This document shows positions 2 through 63,962 of a DNA stretch of 64,000 bases, in pieces. The notes beneath the pieces were generated by a model, which saw only the letters and a list, made by a program, of their open reading frames with translations, was not told where the DNA came from and ran no database searches. The first letter of the stretch is position 1; every line of letters begins with the position of its first letter. This DNA is from an uncultured Bacteroidia bacterium (GTDB taxonomy: Bacteria > Bacteroidota > Bacteroidia > Bacteroidales > F082): positions 26,565 through 90,564 of the forward strand of contig CADCJI010000012.1 in the NCBI GenBank assembly GCA_902801625.1. Direction: 5' to 3'. Both the position numbers and the translations under genes were made by a program.

Positions 2-2863
2 AAAGCGGCAAAAGAATTCAATGTGGGAAAGGACACCATCGTGGAATTCCTTGCTAAAAAAGGATTCCAAGTGGATCCCTCTCCCAACACGAAGCTCACG
101 TCAGACATGTATGCGCTGCTCGTGAAGGAATATCAGGGCGAGAAGGAAGTGAAGAACGAGGCTATGAAATTGGGTAACCTCTCTTTCAAGGGTGGTAGTG
201 TTTCCGTTGATTCGGCATTGCAATCGCAAAAACCCGTCGATGAGGAAGAACACGAGGAAGTGATCATCCGCACGAACACGATAGCATCGCCTACTAAGAA
301 GACGACTAAACCTGTAGCTGCTGAGCCAGAAAAGGTAGAGGCAAAGGAAGAAACTCCGAAGCAAGAAGTTGAAACGACGGCCGAAAAGGCAGAACCTGAA
401 AAGAAGGACGACAGCACTCCGGGCATCTCGCTGAATATCCTCGGCAAGATTGACCTGGAGCCGAAGCCTCGTGAGAAGCAGGAAAAGAAGAAAGAAAAGG
501 AAAAGAAACCCGAAAAGCCTGCCCAACCTCAGGAAAAGAAACAGGAGAAACCTCAGCCTCAGCCAAAACAAGAGGAGAAGAAAAAGGAAGAGCCTGCCAA
601 GGTCGCTCCCGCCAAGGTGGAAGAGAAGCATGTTGAGCCTAAGGTCATCCGTTTGGAAGCTCCCAAACTGACGGGTCCCACCGTTTTGGGTACTTTGGAA
701 CTGCCTGTCGAGAAGAAAGGCGGCAAGCCTGGCGAATCGAAGAAAAAGAAACGTAAACGCATCTCAGGCGCCAAGCCTGAAGGCTCGTCGGAGAATCCTA
801 CAGGCCCGAATGTGAACGCAGGCGGCAAGAAACAGGATGGCAATAAACCTGGCAAGGGCCAAAAACCCGCTGACCAAGGTGGTAAGAAAGGCCAGAAGGA
901 TAATCAGAAACTGAGCAAGAAGGACAAGAAGTCGAAGCGTGAAGAAAAGCCCGAACTGAGCGAAGAGGAAATCTCGAAGCAGATCAAGGACACCTTGGCG
1001 CGTCTCGCTCCCATGGGCAAGTCGAAGACCTCCAAGCACCGCCGTGAGAAGCGTCAGGCCGTGGCCGGCACCATGATGGAAGAGATGATGCGTCAGGAGG
1101 AGGACAAGAAGGTGCTGAAAGTGACCGAATTTGTGACCGCCAACGAACTGGCCACGATGATGAATGTGCCTGTCGTTAAGGTCATCGGCACCTGCATGAG
1201 CCTCGGTATGCCCGTCTCCATCAACCAACGTCTTGATGCCGAAGCCCTGACTGTGGTTGCCGAGGAGTTCGGTTTCCAAGTTGACTTCGTCAGCGCCGAT
1301 GTGCAGGAAGCCATCGCAGAGACAGAAGAGATTGACCACGAAGAAGACCTTGTCCCCCGCGCTCCTGTCGTCACCGTCATGGGTCACGTCGACCATGGTA
1401 AGACTAAACTCTTGGACTACATCCGTAACACCAATGTGGTGGCCGGTGAGGCAGGTGGTATCACCCAGCACATCGGTGCCTATGAGGTGACCACCGAGAG
1501 TGGCAAGAAGATTACCTTCTTGGATACCCCTGGTCACGAAGCCTTCACCGCTATGCGTGCCCGTGGTGCCAAGATCACCGATGTCGCCATCATCGTCATC
1601 GCTACCGACGACAGTGTGATGCCGCAAACCGTCGAGGCTATCAACCATGCCCAGGCCGCTGGTGTGCCTATCGTCTTCGCACTGAACAAGATTGATAAGC
1701 CCACTGCCAACCCCGACAAGATTCGTGAGCAACTGGCTAACATGAATATCCTCGTCGAGAGCTGGGGCGGTAAATACCAAGACCAGGAAATCGCTGCCAA
1801 GATCGGTTTGAATGTCGATGCATTGCTTGAAAAGGTGTTGCTTGAGGCAGAGCTCCTCGACCTGAAGGCTAACCCCAACCGTCTCGCTAAGGGTACGGTC
1901 ATCGAGTCGGCATTGGACAAGGGCCGTGGCTATGTGGCCAAAATCCTGGTGCAGAACGGCACCTTGAAGATTGGTGACATGGTGCTTGCTGGTACCACTT
2001 ACGGTAAGGTGAAGGCCATGTTCGACGACCACAACCGTCCTGTCAAGGAGGCTGGTCCTTCCACGCCGGTGCTGTTGCTGGGTCTGAATGGTGCTCCTAT
2101 GCCGGGTGATGCCTTCAATGTGATGACTGATGAGCGCGAGGTGAAAGCCATCGCCAACCGCCGCGAGCAGTTGCAACGCGAACAGACGCGCCGCACCAGT
2201 CCGCATATCACTTTGGATGAGATTGGTCGTCGTATCGCCATCGGCGACTTCAAGGAGCTTAACATCATCGTCAAGGCCGACGTGGACGGCTCCGTGGAGG
2301 CTCTGGCCGACAGCTTGCTGAAGCTCTCCACTGAGGAGGTGCAAGTCAACGTCATCCACAAGTCGGTGGGTGCCATCAGCGAGTCGGACGTCATGCTGGC
2401 TTCTGCCTCCAACGCCGTCATCGTGGGCTTCAACGTGCGTCCTACCGCACAAGCGCGTAAGATGGCTGAGAATGAGAAGATCGACATCCGCCTCTACTCC
2501 ATCATCTACACCGCCATCGAAGAGATCAAGGCCGCTATCGAAGGTATGTTGGCTCCTGAGATCGAGGAAGTGGTCACCTGCAACCTCGAAATCCGCGAGA
2601 CCTTCAAGATCAGCAAGGTCGGCACTATCGCCGGCTGTATGGTTTTGGACGGCAAGGTCACCCGCAACACCAAGGTTCGTGTCATCCGTGATGGCATCGT
2701 GATTTACACGGGTGTGCTCGGCTCCTTGAAGCGTTACAAGGACGACGTCAAGGAAGTCAGCGCCGGTATGGACTGCGGTTTGAACATCGAGAACTTCAAC
2801 GACATCAAGGTCGGCGACATCATCGAGGGTTACACCGAGAAGGAAGTTGCTAGGAAGTTGTAA
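2..2863 (+). CDS. infB: Translation initiation factor IF-2 (5'-truncated by window edge)
   Basis: IF-2 is the GTPase that places initiator tRNA on the 30S subunit. The reading frame is open from base 2 ([12 protein letters not shown]...), the usual N-terminal IF-2 helix, so the true start lies before the window; the ATG-like codon at 23 (GTG) is internal. A long Lys/Glu/Pro-rich linker follows (about residues 80-340), then the G domain with GHVDHGKT (near 460), DTPGHEAF and NKID, then domains II-IV. The highly charged, low-complexity linker is normal for Bacteroidetes IF-2. A strong hairpin terminator follows the stop, and the next gene is convergent. Identification is secure. Confidence 0.97.
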
Positions 2864-2938: not shown

Positions 2939-5491
2939 TTAAAGTTTCGCCATTACCTTCAACATCTGCTCGCCCAAACCAATCGTGTAACCCTGCTTCA
3001 CAAACACCACCTCACTGTTGGCATTGCCGATGATGAAGATGGGGCGGATGTCGGTGTTGAGGTGCAGACCGTCAACGATTTCGTCGCGTATCTCACCTTC
3101 ATCTATGCCGTAGACGATGCCTTCGGGCAACTCGCTGAAGTTCTTCAATTTGAATTTGTCGTAGTCGGCTTTGTCGCTGAAGACAAAGACTATCGGCAAG
3201 TTGCTCTCTTCAAAGTCTTTGCGGAAGGCGGCGATGTCCTGCATGGCATGGGTGGTGGGTTCGCTGCCTTGATCTAAGTAACCGAGGATGAAATAGCTGT
3301 CTTTGATCAGTTGTTTCGGGTTGCCTTTTTCGCCCGTTTCAGGGTCGGTGAATTTGCTATCAGCATAGTAACTGCCGACAACACGAAGCTCGTTGTCGGG
3401 CTGGCGCAGGACGAGGTTCACTTGTGTGGTTTCACCCGCCTTGATGGTGAAAAACTCGCTGTGGGTCAGGGCTGTGCCGTCATCCAAGCGCGTGCCTGCC
3501 GTGAGGATATAATAGCCTTCATCCAAAGGTGTGGGATGTTCGAAGGTGGAGAGCATCATGCCATCGTCGATGCCAGGATCTTTGGCATCATAGGCCAAGA
3601 GGCGGAAACTTTGGCCATCGAACTTCTTGATGCTGAAGTGCGTGTAGTATTTCGGGTCGGCCACGGAGGCGATAGGGAAATAATGGATGTCCAGATAGCC
3701 AATGGCAGTGCTAGTTGGCTCAGCGGCTTCAAAGTCCACATTAACCCATTCATTGCCAAAATATTGCACATTACCATTCACAGGGTTGATTTGTGCCGCG
3801 ATACCCAAGCTGCGTGCCATACTGACGAAGAAGATGTCGCGCGAGTGGCGGTCGGCCTTACGCGCTTTCAGGACGCCTAGGGGCGAAATCGGGATGCGCT
3901 GTAAAGCCAAATTGTCGTCGGCTTGTATGTTCTTTTTTACCCAATCGACCAACAAGGCGGGATTGTCATGGTATTGTCTTCTTTCCGCTTCGGGGAAGAA
4001 CTCGGAGAGGGTCTTGCGGTAAGGCACAATCATTTCATTGCTCATTCTAGGGCTGAGGATGTATTGCGCATAGAGTTCAGGCGGCATGGAGATGATGGAT
4101 TGCTCAAGACCGGGTGTGTTGTCAAAATGGTCTTTCAGCACCTCAAGGCTGACATCGCGCAGGTCTTTGTCGGAGATGTTGCTGAGCAGTTCCACGGCTT
4201 TGATTTCTGCGTTTTGGCCTTGGGCGTATTTCACAAAGGCGGCGATGGTCTGGTAGTTACCCCAAGTCTTTTCGTAAATGCTGCACAGCTTTTTGTTGCC
4301 CGTGTTCATAATCACATCCATCTGGGCTTTCTTGCAGTCGGCGATGTAGGCGTTGCGCAGCGAGTCTTCAAAGGCTATGCGGCGGTCGTTTTCGGCACGC
4401 ATCTCAGCCGTCACCTCGGGCAAGATGCTTGTCGGGGCGGGTGGTACCATGTCGAACTCAAAGATGTCGTTTTGGCCCTGCATATGGTCAAGGGTGATGG
4501 TAACATTCTCTTGTTTGCCCGACTTGAACACTTGGAAACCAAACTTACCGTCTTTGGCGGCGTAGGCCATCATGCAGCCCAAACCAGAGGTGAGCCAGGT
4601 CTGACCATTCTCGTCGGTGGTCTTCGTGACGACGGTGCAGAACTCGGCGTAGTTGTAAATTTTGAACTCCACGGGCAGGTTAGCTTGCGGTTTGCCGTTG
4701 TTGTCCACCACGGTGATGGTAGTCTTGGCAGCCTTTCCATAGTTGCCCACCACATTGATTTCCGTGTAGTTGGCACTACGGCTGATGACTTCTTCTGGAC
4801 CGTCGTAGTCACCGAATACGCGGGTGTGTAATAATAAGGTGCGTGAGGCAGGCTCGTTGAACCAACCCAAGTCGAGCACAGGCTCAGGCTCGCAGGCGCC
4901 TAAGAAATGCCAATTCCCGTCTACCCAGGCCTCCACCCAGGCGTGGTTGTCGTCGCAGTGGGCCCAGCGGGGGGTGTAGACTTGACGGGCAGGGATGCCC
5001 ACGGTGCGCAAGGCCGTTACCAGTAGCGTCGACTCCTCGCCGCAGCGCCCCCACGAGGTCTTGATGGTCGCCATTGGTGCACTGGTGCGGCTGTCGCTAC
5101 CTTTATAGTTCACATGCTCGTGACACCAATGGTTCACTTCGAGTACGGCATCGTAAAGCGACAAATCCTTCACGCGGCCTTTCAGCTCCTCATAATAGGT
5201 GGCACGGAAGCGGTCGAGGTTCTCGTTGTTGACGCGCACGGGCACCACGAAATGCTTGAACTCGCGCTCGGGGATGCTATTGCCCCAAGGCATCTCTTGT
5301 TTGGCGAGGAAGGCATAGTGGACACACTCGCGGTAATAGTCCTCGGTGTAGTCCACGCTATCGCCAAGGGGCATGTATTGGTAGAGGAACTGTAAGGCTT
5401 GTTTTTCGTTGAAAGTCGTTTCCTTTTCCGACGAGCAGGCCGAGAAAAGCAGTGCTGATAGAACAGCAAAAGATAGGATGAGGTTTTTCAT
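2939..5491 (-). CDS. Transglutaminase-like lipoprotein with C-terminal thioredoxin-like region
   Basis: An 850-residue protein with a lipoprotein signal (lipobox around LFSAC, Cys 19), so probably attached to a membrane facing the periplasm or outside. A transglutaminase/papain-like core lies near residues 120-200: WGRCGEES supplies the Cys (about 149) and DNHAWVEAW the His. The usual third Asp position reads GACEPE, so the third catalytic residue is uncertain. The middle contains an Ig-like region (about 250-330). The last 130 residues resemble a thioredoxin/AhpC fold but lack a CxxC motif. This is a conserved family in Bacteroidetes; substrate is unknown. It could be a peptidase or amidase rather than a cross-linker. 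Confidence 0.8.
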   Translation of the reverse strand: MKNLILSFAVLSALLFSACSSEKETTFNEKQALQFLYQYMPLGDSVDYTEDYYRECVHYAFLAKQEMPWGNSIPEREFKHFVVPVRVNNENLDRFRATYYEELKGRVKDLSLYDAVLEVNHWCHEHVNYKGSDSRTSAPMATIKTSWGRCGEESTLLVTALRTVGIPARQVYTPRWAHCDDNHAWVEAWVDGNWHFLGACEPEPVLDLGWFNEPASRTLLLHTRVFGDYDGPEEVISRSANYTEINVVGNYGKAAKTTITVVDNNGKPQANLPVEFKIYNYAEFCTVVTKTTDENGQTWLTSGLGCMMAYAAKDGKFGFQVFKSGKQENVTITLDHMQGQNDIFEFDMVPPAPTSILPEVTAEMRAENDRRIAFEDSLRNAYIADCKKAQMDVIMNTGNKKLCSIYEKTWGNYQTIAAFVKYAQGQNAEIKAVELLSNISDKDLRDVSLEVLKDHFDNTPGLEQSIISMPPELYAQYILSPRMSNEMIVPYRKTLSEFFPEAERRQYHDNPALLVDWVKKNIQADDNLALQRIPISPLGVLKARKADRHSRDIFFVSMARSLGIAAQINPVNGNVQYFGNEWVNVDFEAAEPTSTAIGYLDIHYFPIASVADPKYYTHFSIKKFDGQSFRLLAYDAKDPGIDDGMMLSTFEHPTPLDEGYYILTAGTRLDDGTALTHSEFFTIKAGETTQVNLVLRQPDNELRVVGSYYADSKFTDPETGEKGNPKQLIKDSYFILGYLDQGSEPTTHAMQDIAAFRKDFEESNLPIVFVFSDKADYDKFKLKNFSELPEGIVYGIDEGEIRDEIVDGLHLNTDIRPIFIIGNANSEVVFVKQGYTIGLGEQMLKVMAKL

Positions 5492-5508
5492 GTTGCAATT
5501 GTTTGCTG

Positions 5509-5516
5509 CAAAGATA
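5509..5516 (-). promoter_or_regulatory. Probable -7 element for the transglutaminase gene
   Basis: CAAAGATA on the plus strand reads TATCTTTG on the minus strand, matching the Bacteroidetes -7 consensus TAnnTTTG. It lies 18 bp before the start codon at 5491. No TTTG was seen at the ideal -33 distance. Confidence 0.55.
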
Positions 5517-5580
5517 GTGTTTATTTCAATCCTTCCGTCAGGAACTTCCGCAAATGGAGGTGGGTTTTGTCTCGGATTTT

Positions 5581-5678
5581 TCTTTTATGGAAGAAATTTT
5601 CCATAAAATCAGGAAATAATTCTTTTATAGAAGAATTTTTATTGAAAAAGTTGAAATTCTTCTTTTATGGAAGAAATT
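5581..5678. repeat. Three 18-bp dyad repeats at exact 40-bp spacing
   Basis: TCTTTTATGGAAGAAATT at 5581 and 5661 and a near copy (TCTTTTATAGAAGAATTT) at 5621. Each contains the inverted repeat TTCTT-N6-AAGAA when the preceding base is included. The two 22-nt spacers are unrelated to each other. The array lies between the divergent transglutaminase gene and the promoter at 5736. It looks like a set of protein-binding sites; no candidate regulator is obvious in the island. Confidence 0.7.
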
Positions 5679-5706
5679 GTATTGATGGAAAGATTGGTTT
5701 TCTGAA

Positions 5707-5743
5707 TTTGAAATGTAATTATCAGAAAAATACGCTATCTTTG
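5707..5743 (+). promoter_or_regulatory. Probable promoter of the structured leader and methyltransferase
   Basis: TATCTTTG at 5736-5743 matches the Bacteroidetes -7 element, with a TTTG at 5707-5710. The 25-nt gap is longer than the usual 19-21, so the -33 half is doubtful. Transcription would start near 5750 and give a leader of about 320 nt. Confidence 0.55.
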
Positions 5744-5827
5744 CGCCAAATAAAGACCAAAGCATCGTTAGAGATAAAAATAGAGAATAAATAACATATT
5801 ATAAACCAAAGCATTAGCTATTATTTC

Positions 5828-6002
5828 GCGTTTAGCCAAGAGCCTCGCAAACTATTTGGAAATAAACAATCAGAAATAATAACAGGTAGTCATCCGATTG
5901 GAAAACCTGACCAACGAATAAAGCAATGCTTGCATCGAATAGGTGTAAGCATCTTATTTGTTGGTAGAGGTTTCCATGCGAGGCCGCCTCTAAGCTAAAC
6001 GC
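5828..6002 (+). ncRNA. Unassigned structured RNA (long branched hairpin), leader of the methyltransferase gene
   Basis: The ends close perfectly: GCGTTTAGC (5828-5836) with GCTAAACGC (5994-6002). Next come AGAG with CTCT and CCTCGC (5843-5848) with GCGAGG (5978-5983). After an asymmetric 5' bubble of about 50 nt, a long stem forms: 5900-5923 pairs with 5953-5975, and ATGCTTGCA (5926-5934) pairs with TGTAAGCAT (5944-5952). No open frame of note crosses it. A closed hairpin with a large internal bubble is also the general shape of 6S RNA, but the bubble here is almost wholly on one side. The lack of a terminator and the position before a gene favour a regulatory leader. Pairing is seen directly; function is not known. 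Confidence 0.65.
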
Positions 6003-6033
6003 AATAAGTGTAAGTCTTGCACCTTATCTTATT
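6003..6033 (+). promoter_or_regulatory. Small hairpin between structured RNA and start-codon hairpin
   Basis: AATAAG (6003-6008) can pair with CTTATT (6028-6033), with TGTAAG and CTTGCA offering partial pairing inside. There is no T-run after it, so it is not an intrinsic terminator. Confidence 0.35.
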
Positions 6034-6039
6034 GTGTTT

Positions 6040-6071
6040 GCGGAAAATAGAAGTGCTAAACTATTATCCGC
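6040..6071 (+). promoter_or_regulatory. Hairpin abutting the methyltransferase start codon
   Basis: GCGGAAAATAG (6040-6050) pairs with CTATTATCCGC (6061-6071) with a single mismatch around a 10-nt loop. The ATG begins at 6072, directly after the stem. The whole expected ribosome-binding zone is inside the hairpin, and no free Shine-Dalgarno sequence is visible. This suggests translation depends on opening the stem. Confidence 0.55.
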
Positions 6072-7142
6072 ATGGCCAATAAAAACCTGAATCAAGCAAA
6101 GAACGCAAAAAAGGATGAGTTTTATACCCAACTTGTTGATATTGAGAACGAGTTGAGGCATTATAAAGAGCATTTTAAGGGCAAGACGGTGCTTTGTAAC
6201 TGCGACGATCCGCGTGTGAGCAACTTTTTCCATTATTTCAGCTACAATTTCGAGCAATTGGGTTTGAAGAAGCTAATTACCACTTGCTACAAGAACCAAA
6301 ACCGCGACTTGTTCAGTCAAAACGATGCCGAACAAGCCATTTGGTTGGAGTATTTTGGTGACCGCAATGGCAACCGTGTGCCCGACCCCGAGGAAATCGG
6401 TATTCATTATTTCAAAGGTGATGGTGATTTCCGTTCTGCTGAGTGCATCGAGTTGCTCAAAGAAGCCGATATTGTGGTGACCAATCCCCCTTTCTCATTG
6501 TTTCGGGAGTATGTGGCGCAATTGATGAAGTATGATAAGAAGTTTGTTATCTTAGGAAGAATGAGTGCATTGCATTATTCAGAAATATTCCCTTTGATTC
6601 AAGATAACAGAATATGGTTGGGATACGGGTTTAACCTATCGATGATATATAAAACGCCATATTCTAATGATTTAGAGGCAAATAAAAAGTTTGTGCAATC
6701 TAAAGGCTATAATCCTGATGAAAACTATATTAAGGTTCCTGCTATTACTTGGTTTACCAATCTAGATCATCAAAAGCGTCATGAATCACTGATAATGTAT
6801 AAACAGTACAACCCAGAAGAATACCCAAAATATGAGAACTATGATGCTATCAATGTTGATTCTGTAAGTGAAATACCTATGGATTACTTTGATGTGATGG
6901 GTGTGCCAGATTCTTTTCTTGGGCAATTAAACCCTGAGCAATTTGAGATAGTAGGATTAGGAAGCGGTGATTTAGCAAAACAGATTGGAATTAAGAAGAA
7001 TTATAGAGGAAGAACAGATCTTGCTTTGTGCATTAATGGAGTGAATAGATGTCCCTATAGCCGTATCCTCATCCGTCGTAAACAAAAGCCAATAGACTAC
7101 GCTTCGGTAGAACTGACGGTCTCGATGGCGGCAGAAAACTAA
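6072..7142 (+). CDS. EcoRI-family adenine-specific DNA methyltransferase
   Basis: A 356-residue protein resembling M.EcoRI-type N6-adenine methyltransferases. The start region MANKNLNQAKNAKKDEFYTQ, the early segment LCNCDDPRVSNFF and the catalytic motif TNPPF (about 137-141, the NPPF motif of N6-adenine methylases) support this. The product should methylate a short palindromic DNA site. The last 19 or so residues, after RILIRRK, run into a palindromic repeat and may be an acquired extension. The middle of the gene (about 6560-7080) is clearly more AT-rich than the two ends. The next gene on the same strand is a DUF262-HNH nuclease, which suggests a modification/restriction pair. Its leader holds an elaborate RNA fold. 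Confidence 0.88.
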   Translation: MANKNLNQAKNAKKDEFYTQLVDIENELRHYKEHFKGKTVLCNCDDPRVSNFFHYFSYNFEQLGLKKLITTCYKNQNRDLFSQNDAEQAIWLEYFGDRNGNRVPDPEEIGIHYFKGDGDFRSAECIELLKEADIVVTNPPFSLFREYVAQLMKYDKKFVILGRMSALHYSEIFPLIQDNRIWLGYGFNLSMIYKTPYSNDLEANKKFVQSKGYNPDENYIKVPAITWFTNLDHQKRHESLIMYKQYNPEEYPKYENYDAINVDSVSEIPMDYFDVMGVPDSFLGQLNPEQFEIVGLGSGDLAKQIGIKKNYRGRTDLALCINGVNRCPYSRILIRRKQKPIDYASVELTVSMAAEN

Positions 7143-7310
7143 GTCCCGTAGGGACGCAGGACATTAAGCAGGTGGATTCATCCCCTGCGCATAAAACGAC
7201 GATGAAGAAAGGACGCAGCCATAGATCCCAAGCCAACGCGCAAACCTGCGTGGGGATGACATGGCTGCTGCCTCCACCAAGTCCCATAGGGACGTAGGAT
7301 ATTAAGCAGG
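7141..7310. repeat. Two copies of a 32-bp repeat with GTCCC-N3-GGGAC core in the 200-bp gap
   Basis: Copy one is 7141-7172, overlapping the methyltransferase stop codon. Copy two is 7279-7310. They differ at three positions and share AAGTCCC-TAGGGACG and ATTAAGCAGG. The core is palindromic, as in REP-like elements. The rest of the 7143-7342 gap has no convincing gene. Confidence 0.7.
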
Positions 7311-7342: not shown

Positions 7343-8434
7343 ATGAACATAGAACTACACAAAATCACCGTCCGCGAGCTGACCAAAGGCTACGTGGATA
7401 ACAATGAAAACGGCGTGCGCGCCTATGGCGGCCGCCTCGACGTGCGCCCGCCCTACCAGCGCGAGTTCGTCTACAAAGAAAAACAGCGCGATGCCGTCAT
7501 CGACACGCTCACCCAAGGCTTTCCGCTCAATGTGATGTATTGGGCCGTACGCGACGACGACACTTTCGAAATCATCGACGGGCAGCAGCGCACCATCAGC
7601 ATCTGCCAATATGTCAATGGCGACTTCGCCTTCAACTTCCGCTATTTCCACAACCTCCAGCCCGATGAGCAAGAACAAATCCTCAACTATGAGTTGCAAA
7701 TCTACATCTGTAGCGGCACCGACAGTGAGAAGCTGAAATGGTTCCGAACCATCAACATCGCGGGAGAGGCGCTCACCGAGCAGGAGCTGCGCAACGCGGT
7801 GTATGCAGGCAGTTGGGTGAGCGACGCCAAACGCTATTTCAGCAAGAACGGTGCACCTGCCGCAAAAATCGGTAGCGACTACCTCAACGGCTCCGCCATC
7901 CGTCAGGACTACCTCGAAACCGCCATCGACTGGATTTCGGACGGCAATATCGAGGTCTACATGTCGAACCACCAGCATGATGCCAGTGCCGCACCGCTGT
8001 GGCAGTTCTTCCAGTCGGTCATCACCTGGATTGAGACCTCGTTCCGCCCGACCAAGGAACGCAAGAAAATCATGAAAGGCGTGGAGTGGGGGATGCTCTA
8101 CAAGCAATACAAAGACCAAGTGTTTGACTACAAAGCCATCGATGAAGAAGTAAAACGCCTTATCCTCGACGATGATGTAACTAAAAATTCAGGTATTTAT
8201 CCCTATATTCTTACACGCAAGGAGAAATATCTGTCGATTCGAGCCTTCACCGATGCACAAAAATTGTCGGCATACGAAAGGCAGATGGGTTTTTGTGCCG
8301 ACTGTAAGCAGCATTTCGAGCTCTCCCAAATGGAAGCCGACCACATCACACCGTGGCACCTCGGCGGCAAGACCATTGCGGAGAATTGTCAGATGCTCTG
8401 CAAGGAATGTAATAGACGGAAGAGTGGAAAATAA
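7343..8434 (+). CDS. DUF262 (GmrSD/ParB-like) protein with C-terminal HNH nuclease domain
   Basis: 363 residues. The N-terminal DUF262 domain has RPPYQREFVY (about 35-44) and the hallmark IIDGQQRT (about 77-84), the motif linked to nucleotide use in GmrSD-type restriction proteins. The C-terminal 47 residues form an HNH domain: CADC, EADHITPWHLGG, then CKECNRRK, with the zinc cysteines and catalytic His all present. It follows the EcoRI-family methyltransferase on the same strand, which points to a DNA-restriction role. Whether it cuts unmodified or modified DNA cannot be told from sequence. It is complete, with a strong terminator after it. Its codon use is richer in G and C than that of the central methyltransferase region. 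Confidence 0.88.
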   Translation: MNIELHKITVRELTKGYVDNNENGVRAYGGRLDVRPPYQREFVYKEKQRDAVIDTLTQGFPLNVMYWAVRDDDTFEIIDGQQRTISICQYVNGDFAFNFRYFHNLQPDEQEQILNYELQIYICSGTDSEKLKWFRTINIAGEALTEQELRNAVYAGSWVSDAKRYFSKNGAPAAKIGSDYLNGSAIRQDYLETAIDWISDGNIEVYMSNHQHDASAAPLWQFFQSVITWIETSFRPTKERKKIMKGVEWGMLYKQYKDQVFDYKAIDEEVKRLILDDDVTKNSGIYPYILTRKEKYLSIRAFTDAQKLSAYERQMGFCADCKQHFELSQMEADHITPWHLGGKTIAENCQMLCKECNRRKSGK

Positions 8435-63572: not shown

Positions 63573-63584
63573 ACATTCAAAAAG

Positions 63585-63962
63585 TGGAGATGGAGGGAGT
63601 CGAACCCTCGTCCAAACAAGGAACCCCCATGGTTTCTACATGCTTATTCCGCTGTTGGTTTTCGTGCCGCGCAAGGGATTATCTCCTAAAGCTTCGCCTT
63701 GCTGTCGGAGCGCCGACAAGGCTATCCTGAAATTGCTTAGCACCCCGGGCTCAGGCCGGAATCAGGAATCTCCACCTGCGGGATGTCTCGTCCGCCCACC
63801 TTGTGAGCGGATTAAGCCAGTGATCTACTGTGCTTCAATCAGGCAGCGAGAGCGTAGTTGTTTTCGCCAATTAATTTTTTGCAGTCAAGATTAACGAGCG
63901 TCACTGCGAGGCTCGACATGCTTACATGACAATTCATCTTGCTGTCAAAACCATACATCCCC
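63585..63962 (-). tRNA. ssrA: Transfer-messenger RNA (tmRNA)
   Basis: tmRNA rescues stalled ribosomes. On the minus strand the 5' end is GGGGATG..., which pairs with the 3' end CATCTCC-A. The 3' T-arm region reads GAGGGTTCGACTCCCTCCAT and ends in CCA at 63585. The tag reading frame is at 63839-63868: GGC GAA AAC AAC TAC GCT CTC GCT GCC TGA, giving GENNYALAA, a tag of the Bacteroidales type with the protease-directing ALAA end. Several pseudoknot-like pairings lie between. Length is 378 nt. Open frames in this region are not genes. Confidence 0.96.
63839..63868 (-). other. ssrA: tmRNA tag-peptide coding segment (GENNYALAA)
   Basis: The resume codon is GGC and the stop TGA; the A-rich stretch AAAAAATTAATT precedes it on the minus strand, as needed for correct frame choice. 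Confidence 0.85.

Follow-up and report, generated by a model that had tools for sequence, protein, structure and literature searches.

A dispersed family of structured leader RNAs in Bacteroidales, found in front of DNA methyltransferase and other genes, as a candidate attenuator-like fold switch

Introduction

Attenuator-type leaders, in which hairpins are mutually exclusive, are known from erm and trp as well as from riboswitch expression platforms, and C proteins are known regulators of restriction-modification (R-M) systems. The subject of this study is a structured RNA that stands in front of an EcoRI-type DNA methyltransferase gene in a 64,000-nucleotide stretch of contig CADCJI010000012.1 from an uncultured Bacteroidia bacterium (hereafter the window). 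A prior inspection of the letters alone (the sequence-only reading) had singled out positions 5828-6002 of the window as an undescribed structured RNA leading an adenine methyltransferase gene, with a 6S RNA as the alternative.

The family to which this RNA belongs resembles the erm, trp and riboswitch attenuators in that it is a 5' leader in which, in one of its two subclasses (B), two strands vie for one partner, with a terminator or occlusion of the start codon as the putative outcome. Unlike these attenuators it precedes unrelated genes and contains one fast-changing stem, and no leader peptide was noticed in it, although no systematic search was made. The LoaP-dependent dfn operon is reported to have a 5' leader that combines an intrinsic terminator with a small hairpin (PMC12691694); here, a small box hairpin and often a terminator-like one stand in the same subclass-B leader, with a long hairpin between them. 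Control of R-M systems is treated in the literature found through regulatory proteins and antisense RNAs, for instance for EcoRI and Eco29kI, and in the main text of a review of such control the word 'riboswitch' is absent while 'leader' and 'attenuat' occur once each (PMC3874152). The possible aim, setting the dose of methyltransferase and restriction enzyme, would be shared with these described modes (PMC3874152); the means differs, being an RNA leader.

Results and Discussion

The window stretch holds one member of a family of structured RNAs that is dispersed in Bacteroidales and was matched to no known family. The strong fold attributed to positions 5828-6002 is borne out by its minimum free energy (MFE) of -71.8 kcal/mol, where shuffled versions average -36.2 (sd 4.16, giving z -8.56) and none of 200 was as good, and a longer stretch (5748-6090) is likewise more stable than its shuffles (z -7.53). 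The closing stem (GCGTTTAGC/GCTAAACGC) comprises 9 bp, all paired, and the inner hairpin 33 pairs in the MFE fold. The extent and stems given by the sequence-only reading hold with two corrections: the closing, second and apical stems are conserved (see below), whereas one stem of the MFE fold is not kept and the true unit is larger, starting at 5794 and continuing through two further hairpins to the ATG. All its parts lie on the + strand. A conserved box of 34 nt (ACATATTATAAACCAAAGCATTAGCTATTATTTC; 5794-5827), the best-conserved part of the leader family, is followed, as read from the fold, by the 5' strand of P1 and P2 (5828-5849), with pairs 5828-5836/5994-6002, 5839-5841/5989-5991 and 5842-5849/5977-5984. 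The 5' strand of the fast-changing stem P3 (5910-5921) has its 3' strand at 5954-5965, and the apical hairpin P5 occupies 5926-5952. S', the 3' strand of the long hairpin (5954-6002), is succeeded by hairpin T (about 6003-6034), located where other copies have a terminator-like hairpin, and by hairpin H3 (about 6037-6073), which extends to the ATG. The window copy belongs to subclass A, the A/B split being a crude one made by box letters that varies slightly between scripts; most of its aligned subclass-A relatives carry, at the H3 site, a hairpin of GATTGATAGC...ACTATCAATC type. The subclass-B box consists of a small hairpin (TAGC-GTTT-GCTA) and a tail.

The claim that the family is undescribed agrees with the searches made. 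At gathering thresholds, Rfam gave no match at the leader, the sole match in the whole window being a tmRNA at 63582-63962, and at E values up to 10 the only match within 5700-6100 was to a microRNA family (19 bits, the cut-off being 75), with none to 6S. No description of this leader RNA was found in the titles and abstract openings of literature search results. IMG/VR, scanned with two box patterns, gave no matches, and blastn against phage and plasmid collections found no match. A retron test revealed no reverse transcriptase among 7 proteins around the window copy or the 40 downstream representatives scanned.

Of the 149 genomes in the relatives set, 48 (own genome included) have the EcoRI-type methyltransferase. 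Among 30 loci fetched, two (L004, L015) were too short, and 24 of the 28 with enough upstream DNA carry the box, with alignable leaders, the four without it being L028, L029, L030 and L032. The box pattern alone occurs in 53/99 genomes of the genus (one match for the reversed control) and in 17/393 genomes of an order sample, representing 11 of its 206 genera, with two matches for the control; in a phylum sample of 296 genomes, scanned with a slightly different box pattern, only the own genome matched and none of the 295 others. Among the 80 contig-scan matches listed, of at least 119 loci, nearly all are from Bacteroidales, many of them from ruminant or horse gut and including Bacteroides rodentium; Marixanthotalea (L204) is the one title noticed among them outside the order, and may be due to chance. 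A single genome may hold up to seven box matches (G074). The window genome has three box copies in an 84%-complete assembly, the other two preceding an N6_Mtase/Eco57I-cluster gene (L002) and a PDC-S31-like candidate defence gene (L109). In total 209 distinct copies were collected, and those first fetched via the methyltransferase search and counted are also among the box-pattern matches of genus or order. As a separate observation, the L172 copy seems, by eye, to be interrupted inside its apical hairpin and followed by an opposite-strand gene resembling a transposase.

Conservation of the fold was assessed for subclass A in an alignment (A2) that joins the window copy with 18 sequences of the same type; the window stands in for the nearly identical RNA of L183, and the rows of L006 and L008 stop early. 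In its 19 rows, 95.6% of helix cells are paired compared to 87.0% in shuffles, and 80 cells show double changes compared to 27.9; neither value, nor the covariation score, was reached by any of 500 shuffles, and the number of pairs with a double change was reached by one. Pairing fell to 32-47% when partners were slid by 1-3 columns. In helices 1 and 2, 100% and 98% of cells are paired, with 6 pairs changed on both sides; helix 5 (P5) is paired in 99.5%, and helix 6 (hairpin T, 3 pairs) in 96.5%. In P3 all 4 counted pairs change on both sides, and only 73.7% of its cells pair, the alignment being loose there. Judged from this alignment, the closing and second stems, like the apical hairpin, are kept with compensating changes. 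The MFE stem that is not kept lies at A2 columns 58-66/91-98, where one of 8 pairs is standard in 19/19 rows and the other seven in 1-13. Compensating changes, like repeated linkage to the methyltransferase, had been named by the sequence-only reading as what would support it, and both were found.

For subclass B, an alignment (A1) was made of 66 of 81 non-redundant copies (97 before), 15 having been excluded manually because they had insertions or a divergent tail of the box. RNAalifold recovered only 19 pairs, 11 of them with double changes. As this alignment is loose in its middle, subclass-B pairing was tested by comparing duplex energies in cis and in trans, using the 49 of 55 copies left once duplicates were removed, each with a T run followed by a gene at 45-140 nt; the subclass-A set comprised 56 of 64 copies. 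The two strands of the long hairpin, S1 and S', match each other in both subclasses, with -45.4 kcal/mol in cis and -27.4 in trans for B (own partner best of all in 34/49) and -47.6 versus -31.4 for A (best in 30/56). In addition, a box-tail position in A1 pairs in the standard way with a position inside the fold in 65/66 rows (A-T 53, G-C 10, G-T 2, A-C 1), and its mutual information of 0.42 is the highest of all columns, the shuffled maximum being 0.28.

That this RNA is a cis-acting 5' leader between a promoter and a gene is well supported by its placement in the genomes compared. A crude open-frame rule, applied to the 190 of 209 copies with at least 800 nt downstream, gave 189 next genes, of which 179 lie on the strand of the copy (68/68 in A, 111/121 in B); the upstream gene is on the same strand in 111 cases and on the opposite one in 57. 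The distance from box to ATG peaks at 270-280 nt in A and 225-255 nt in B. TAnnTTTG, which we take to be the Bacteroidota-type promoter motif, is found 25-150 nt 5' of the box in 116/202 copies as opposed to 16/202 for the reversed motif, its positions peaking at 30-90 nt.

The next genes were grouped by single-linkage BLAST, and the clusters identified from Pfam. About 110 of the 189 belong to DNA-methyltransferase clusters of several unrelated families: EcoRI_methylase (55 genes, all matching the Pfam family), N6_Mtase/Eco57I (25; 15 match N6_Mtase and 12 Eco57I), N6_N4_Mtase (18/18 matching) and the smaller clusters MmeI (5), D12 (3), C5 (3) and one N6, for which representatives only were scanned. 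A DUF1016-cluster gene lies directly behind the box in 10/189 copies, and the remaining next genes include GDSL lipases, glycosyltransferases, acyltransferases, PAP2, DarT, Tsp45I and ResIII genes, a fimbrillin, an Mfd-like gene and many unknowns. The leader family is thus not limited to R-M genes and also precedes restriction, toxin, nuclease and surface genes. The Mfd-like gene (L057) contains a UvrB interaction domain. At L063, L079 and L084, DUF1016-cluster genes start about 60 nt past a bare box, beside further box copies.

On balance we favor a cis-acting leader that would work as an attenuator-like fold switch, although with much room for doubt, and the switch would act on termination or on access to the start codon. 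In the proposed layout, the box is followed by the long hairpin (S1 versus S', capped by P5), hairpin T and a last segment up to the ATG, and the expression of the following gene would be set by a choice between folds. In subclass B, hairpin T would often be terminator-like (a GC hairpin with a T run), while S2, a segment 3' of T, resembles S1 and could take S', so that S1:S' and S':S2 would be mutually exclusive immediately 5' of the ATG. Hairpins followed by a T run are indeed found in 71/117 subclass-B copies (shuffled 2) and 35/77 subclass-A copies (shuffled 1). In subclass B, S' and S2 reach -36.1 kcal/mol in cis, compared to -25.8 in trans and -21.5 when shuffled (own S2 best in 12/49, in the top 5% in 24/49), the control S1 x S2 giving -17.9 versus -18.6. 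Subclass A lacks such an S2 and has H3 reaching to the ATG instead, which would place control at start-codon access in the window copy, and at termination in some other copies. The likely trigger would be a trans-acting factor at the box. For R-M genes the leader would tune the dose of methyltransferase, and for defence and surface genes it would hold costly genes low until needed. If so, one leader family would govern unrelated DNA methyltransferases plus restriction, toxin and surface genes across Bacteroidales, and offer a single handle on defence expression in gut bacteria.

Several results weigh against this explanation. The window copy is without a convincing terminator, the scan flagging only P5 with its tail and not T, and some of the 35 terminator-like hairpins of subclass A may be of this same kind, P5 with a T-rich tail. 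Subclass A, the window included, shows no S2 effect (-26.1 versus -25.6 kcal/mol), and two further pairings are weak by energy: the 3' strand of P5 with that of T (-14.0 versus -10.5; best in 4/49, top 5% in 11/49, subclass B) and the box tail with S1 (-6.7 versus -5.7). Further pair types in A2 are no better than in shuffles, of which 287/500 do as well. Ten of 189 copies were called with an opposite-strand next gene, a count left unadjusted even though some of these are frames antisense to the element and that of L014 is antisense to the methyltransferase. Finally, unlike for the dfn leader and LoaP, NusG-family genes occur with or without the box (96/99 genomes, mostly one to three each) and are therefore non-discriminating.

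Within the otherwise conserved RNA, copies differ most in one paired stem, P3, as judged by the sequence identities measured in subclass B (63 copies; 87 pairs with a frame identity of at least 80%). Among the 16 pairs with a frame identity of 90-95%, P3 strand identity is only 61% and 70%, random P3 pairs giving 42%; at a frame identity of at least 95% (8 pairs) they are 91% and 95% identical. Such a fast-changing paired stem in an otherwise conserved RNA is a puzzle open to direct test. One speculative answer, to which we give little credence, is that P3 serves as a barcode: either the terminated leader or the 3' strand of it would act in trans, and only on leaders with a matching stem; this would give each defence or methyltransferase gene a private RNA circuit and let copies in the same genome coexist without mutual interference.

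Among the rival explanations, that of a non-autonomous mobile element (similar to a miniature inverted-repeat transposable element), whose strong hairpin is inserted before genes or moves with cargo, is unlikely and yet the most substantial. The copies of L061 and L070 are near-identical (98.4% over -2..188) with unrelated flanks, as are those of L056 and L061, which also speaks against a plain leader; other pairs are alike until about the start codon and not past it, L064/L081 being alike to +270, and contigs end within the copies of L053, L079 and L087. Random insertion, however, would not yield 179/189 copies on the strand of the next gene or a fixed distance to the ATG, and the ends were compared by eye in few copies. 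The leader may move as a cassette, either together with its gene or without it. A smaller chance still attaches to a small RNA independent of the gene, 6S-like or trans-acting, whose end simply falls upstream of it. The terminator-like hairpin of 71 subclass-B copies could give rise to a discrete RNA, and the long hairpin with its internal loops is reminiscent of 6S; the linkage to the next gene, a window copy without a flagged terminator, the missing Rfam 6S match and the up to seven box matches in a single genome tell against such an RNA. The 6S alternative of the sequence-only reading is disfavored because the copies are leaders of the following gene.

Two explanations tied to the downstream genes are very improbable. 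The predominance among next genes of clusters of DNA methyltransferases dependent on S-adenosylmethionine (SAM) would suit a riboswitch for SAM or S-adenosylhomocysteine (SAH), but the leader also precedes genes without an evident need for SAM (GDSL lipase, glycosyltransferase, acyltransferase, DarT, DUF1016 and the Mfd-like gene), and no Rfam SAM or SAH family was matched. That the element is the RNA partner of the DUF1016/YhcG nuclease gains from the 10/189 copies with such a gene directly behind the box and from the 19/99 genus copies in which one ends just 5' of it. However, only 5/30 sampled DUF1016 loci have the box within the stretch examined, the DUF1016 family is present in 90/99 genomes regardless of the box, and no DUF1016 was found in the window's own assembly, 84% complete, despite its three box copies.

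At the window locus, the promoter and methyltransferase between which the sequence-only reading had placed the fold were both recognized, in the order promoter element, fold, methyltransferase and restriction gene on the + strand. The TAnnTTTG element (TATCTTTG; 5736-5743, +), read in the sequence, lies 85 nt 5' of the fold. The adenine-specific DNA methyltransferase of EcoRI type (6072-7142, +) matches Pfam PF13651 EcoRI_methylase (E 2.3e-136) and PADLOC MTase_II, and is followed by a probable cognate restriction enzyme (7343-8434, +) with Pfam GmrSD_N and HNH matches and PADLOC REase_II (E 4.5e-140). In the interval between these two genes, near-identical repeats (7142-7172 and 7280-7310) are found around TCCCGTAGGGAC / TCCCATAGGGAC. 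Located 5' of the promoter are three 23-nt direct repeats (5576-5598, 5616-5638 and 5656-5678; ATTTTTCTTTTATGGAAGAAATT) spaced by 40 nt, copies two and three being 83% and 96% identical to the first; these are possible regulator sites. A 26-nt inverted repeat (5502-5527 / 5725-5750, 81% complementary) spans the promoter element together with the start region of the opposite-strand gene 2939-5491, perhaps as a mirrored promoter pair. The tmRNA noted above, at the far end of the window, lies on the - strand and scores 141.3 bits.
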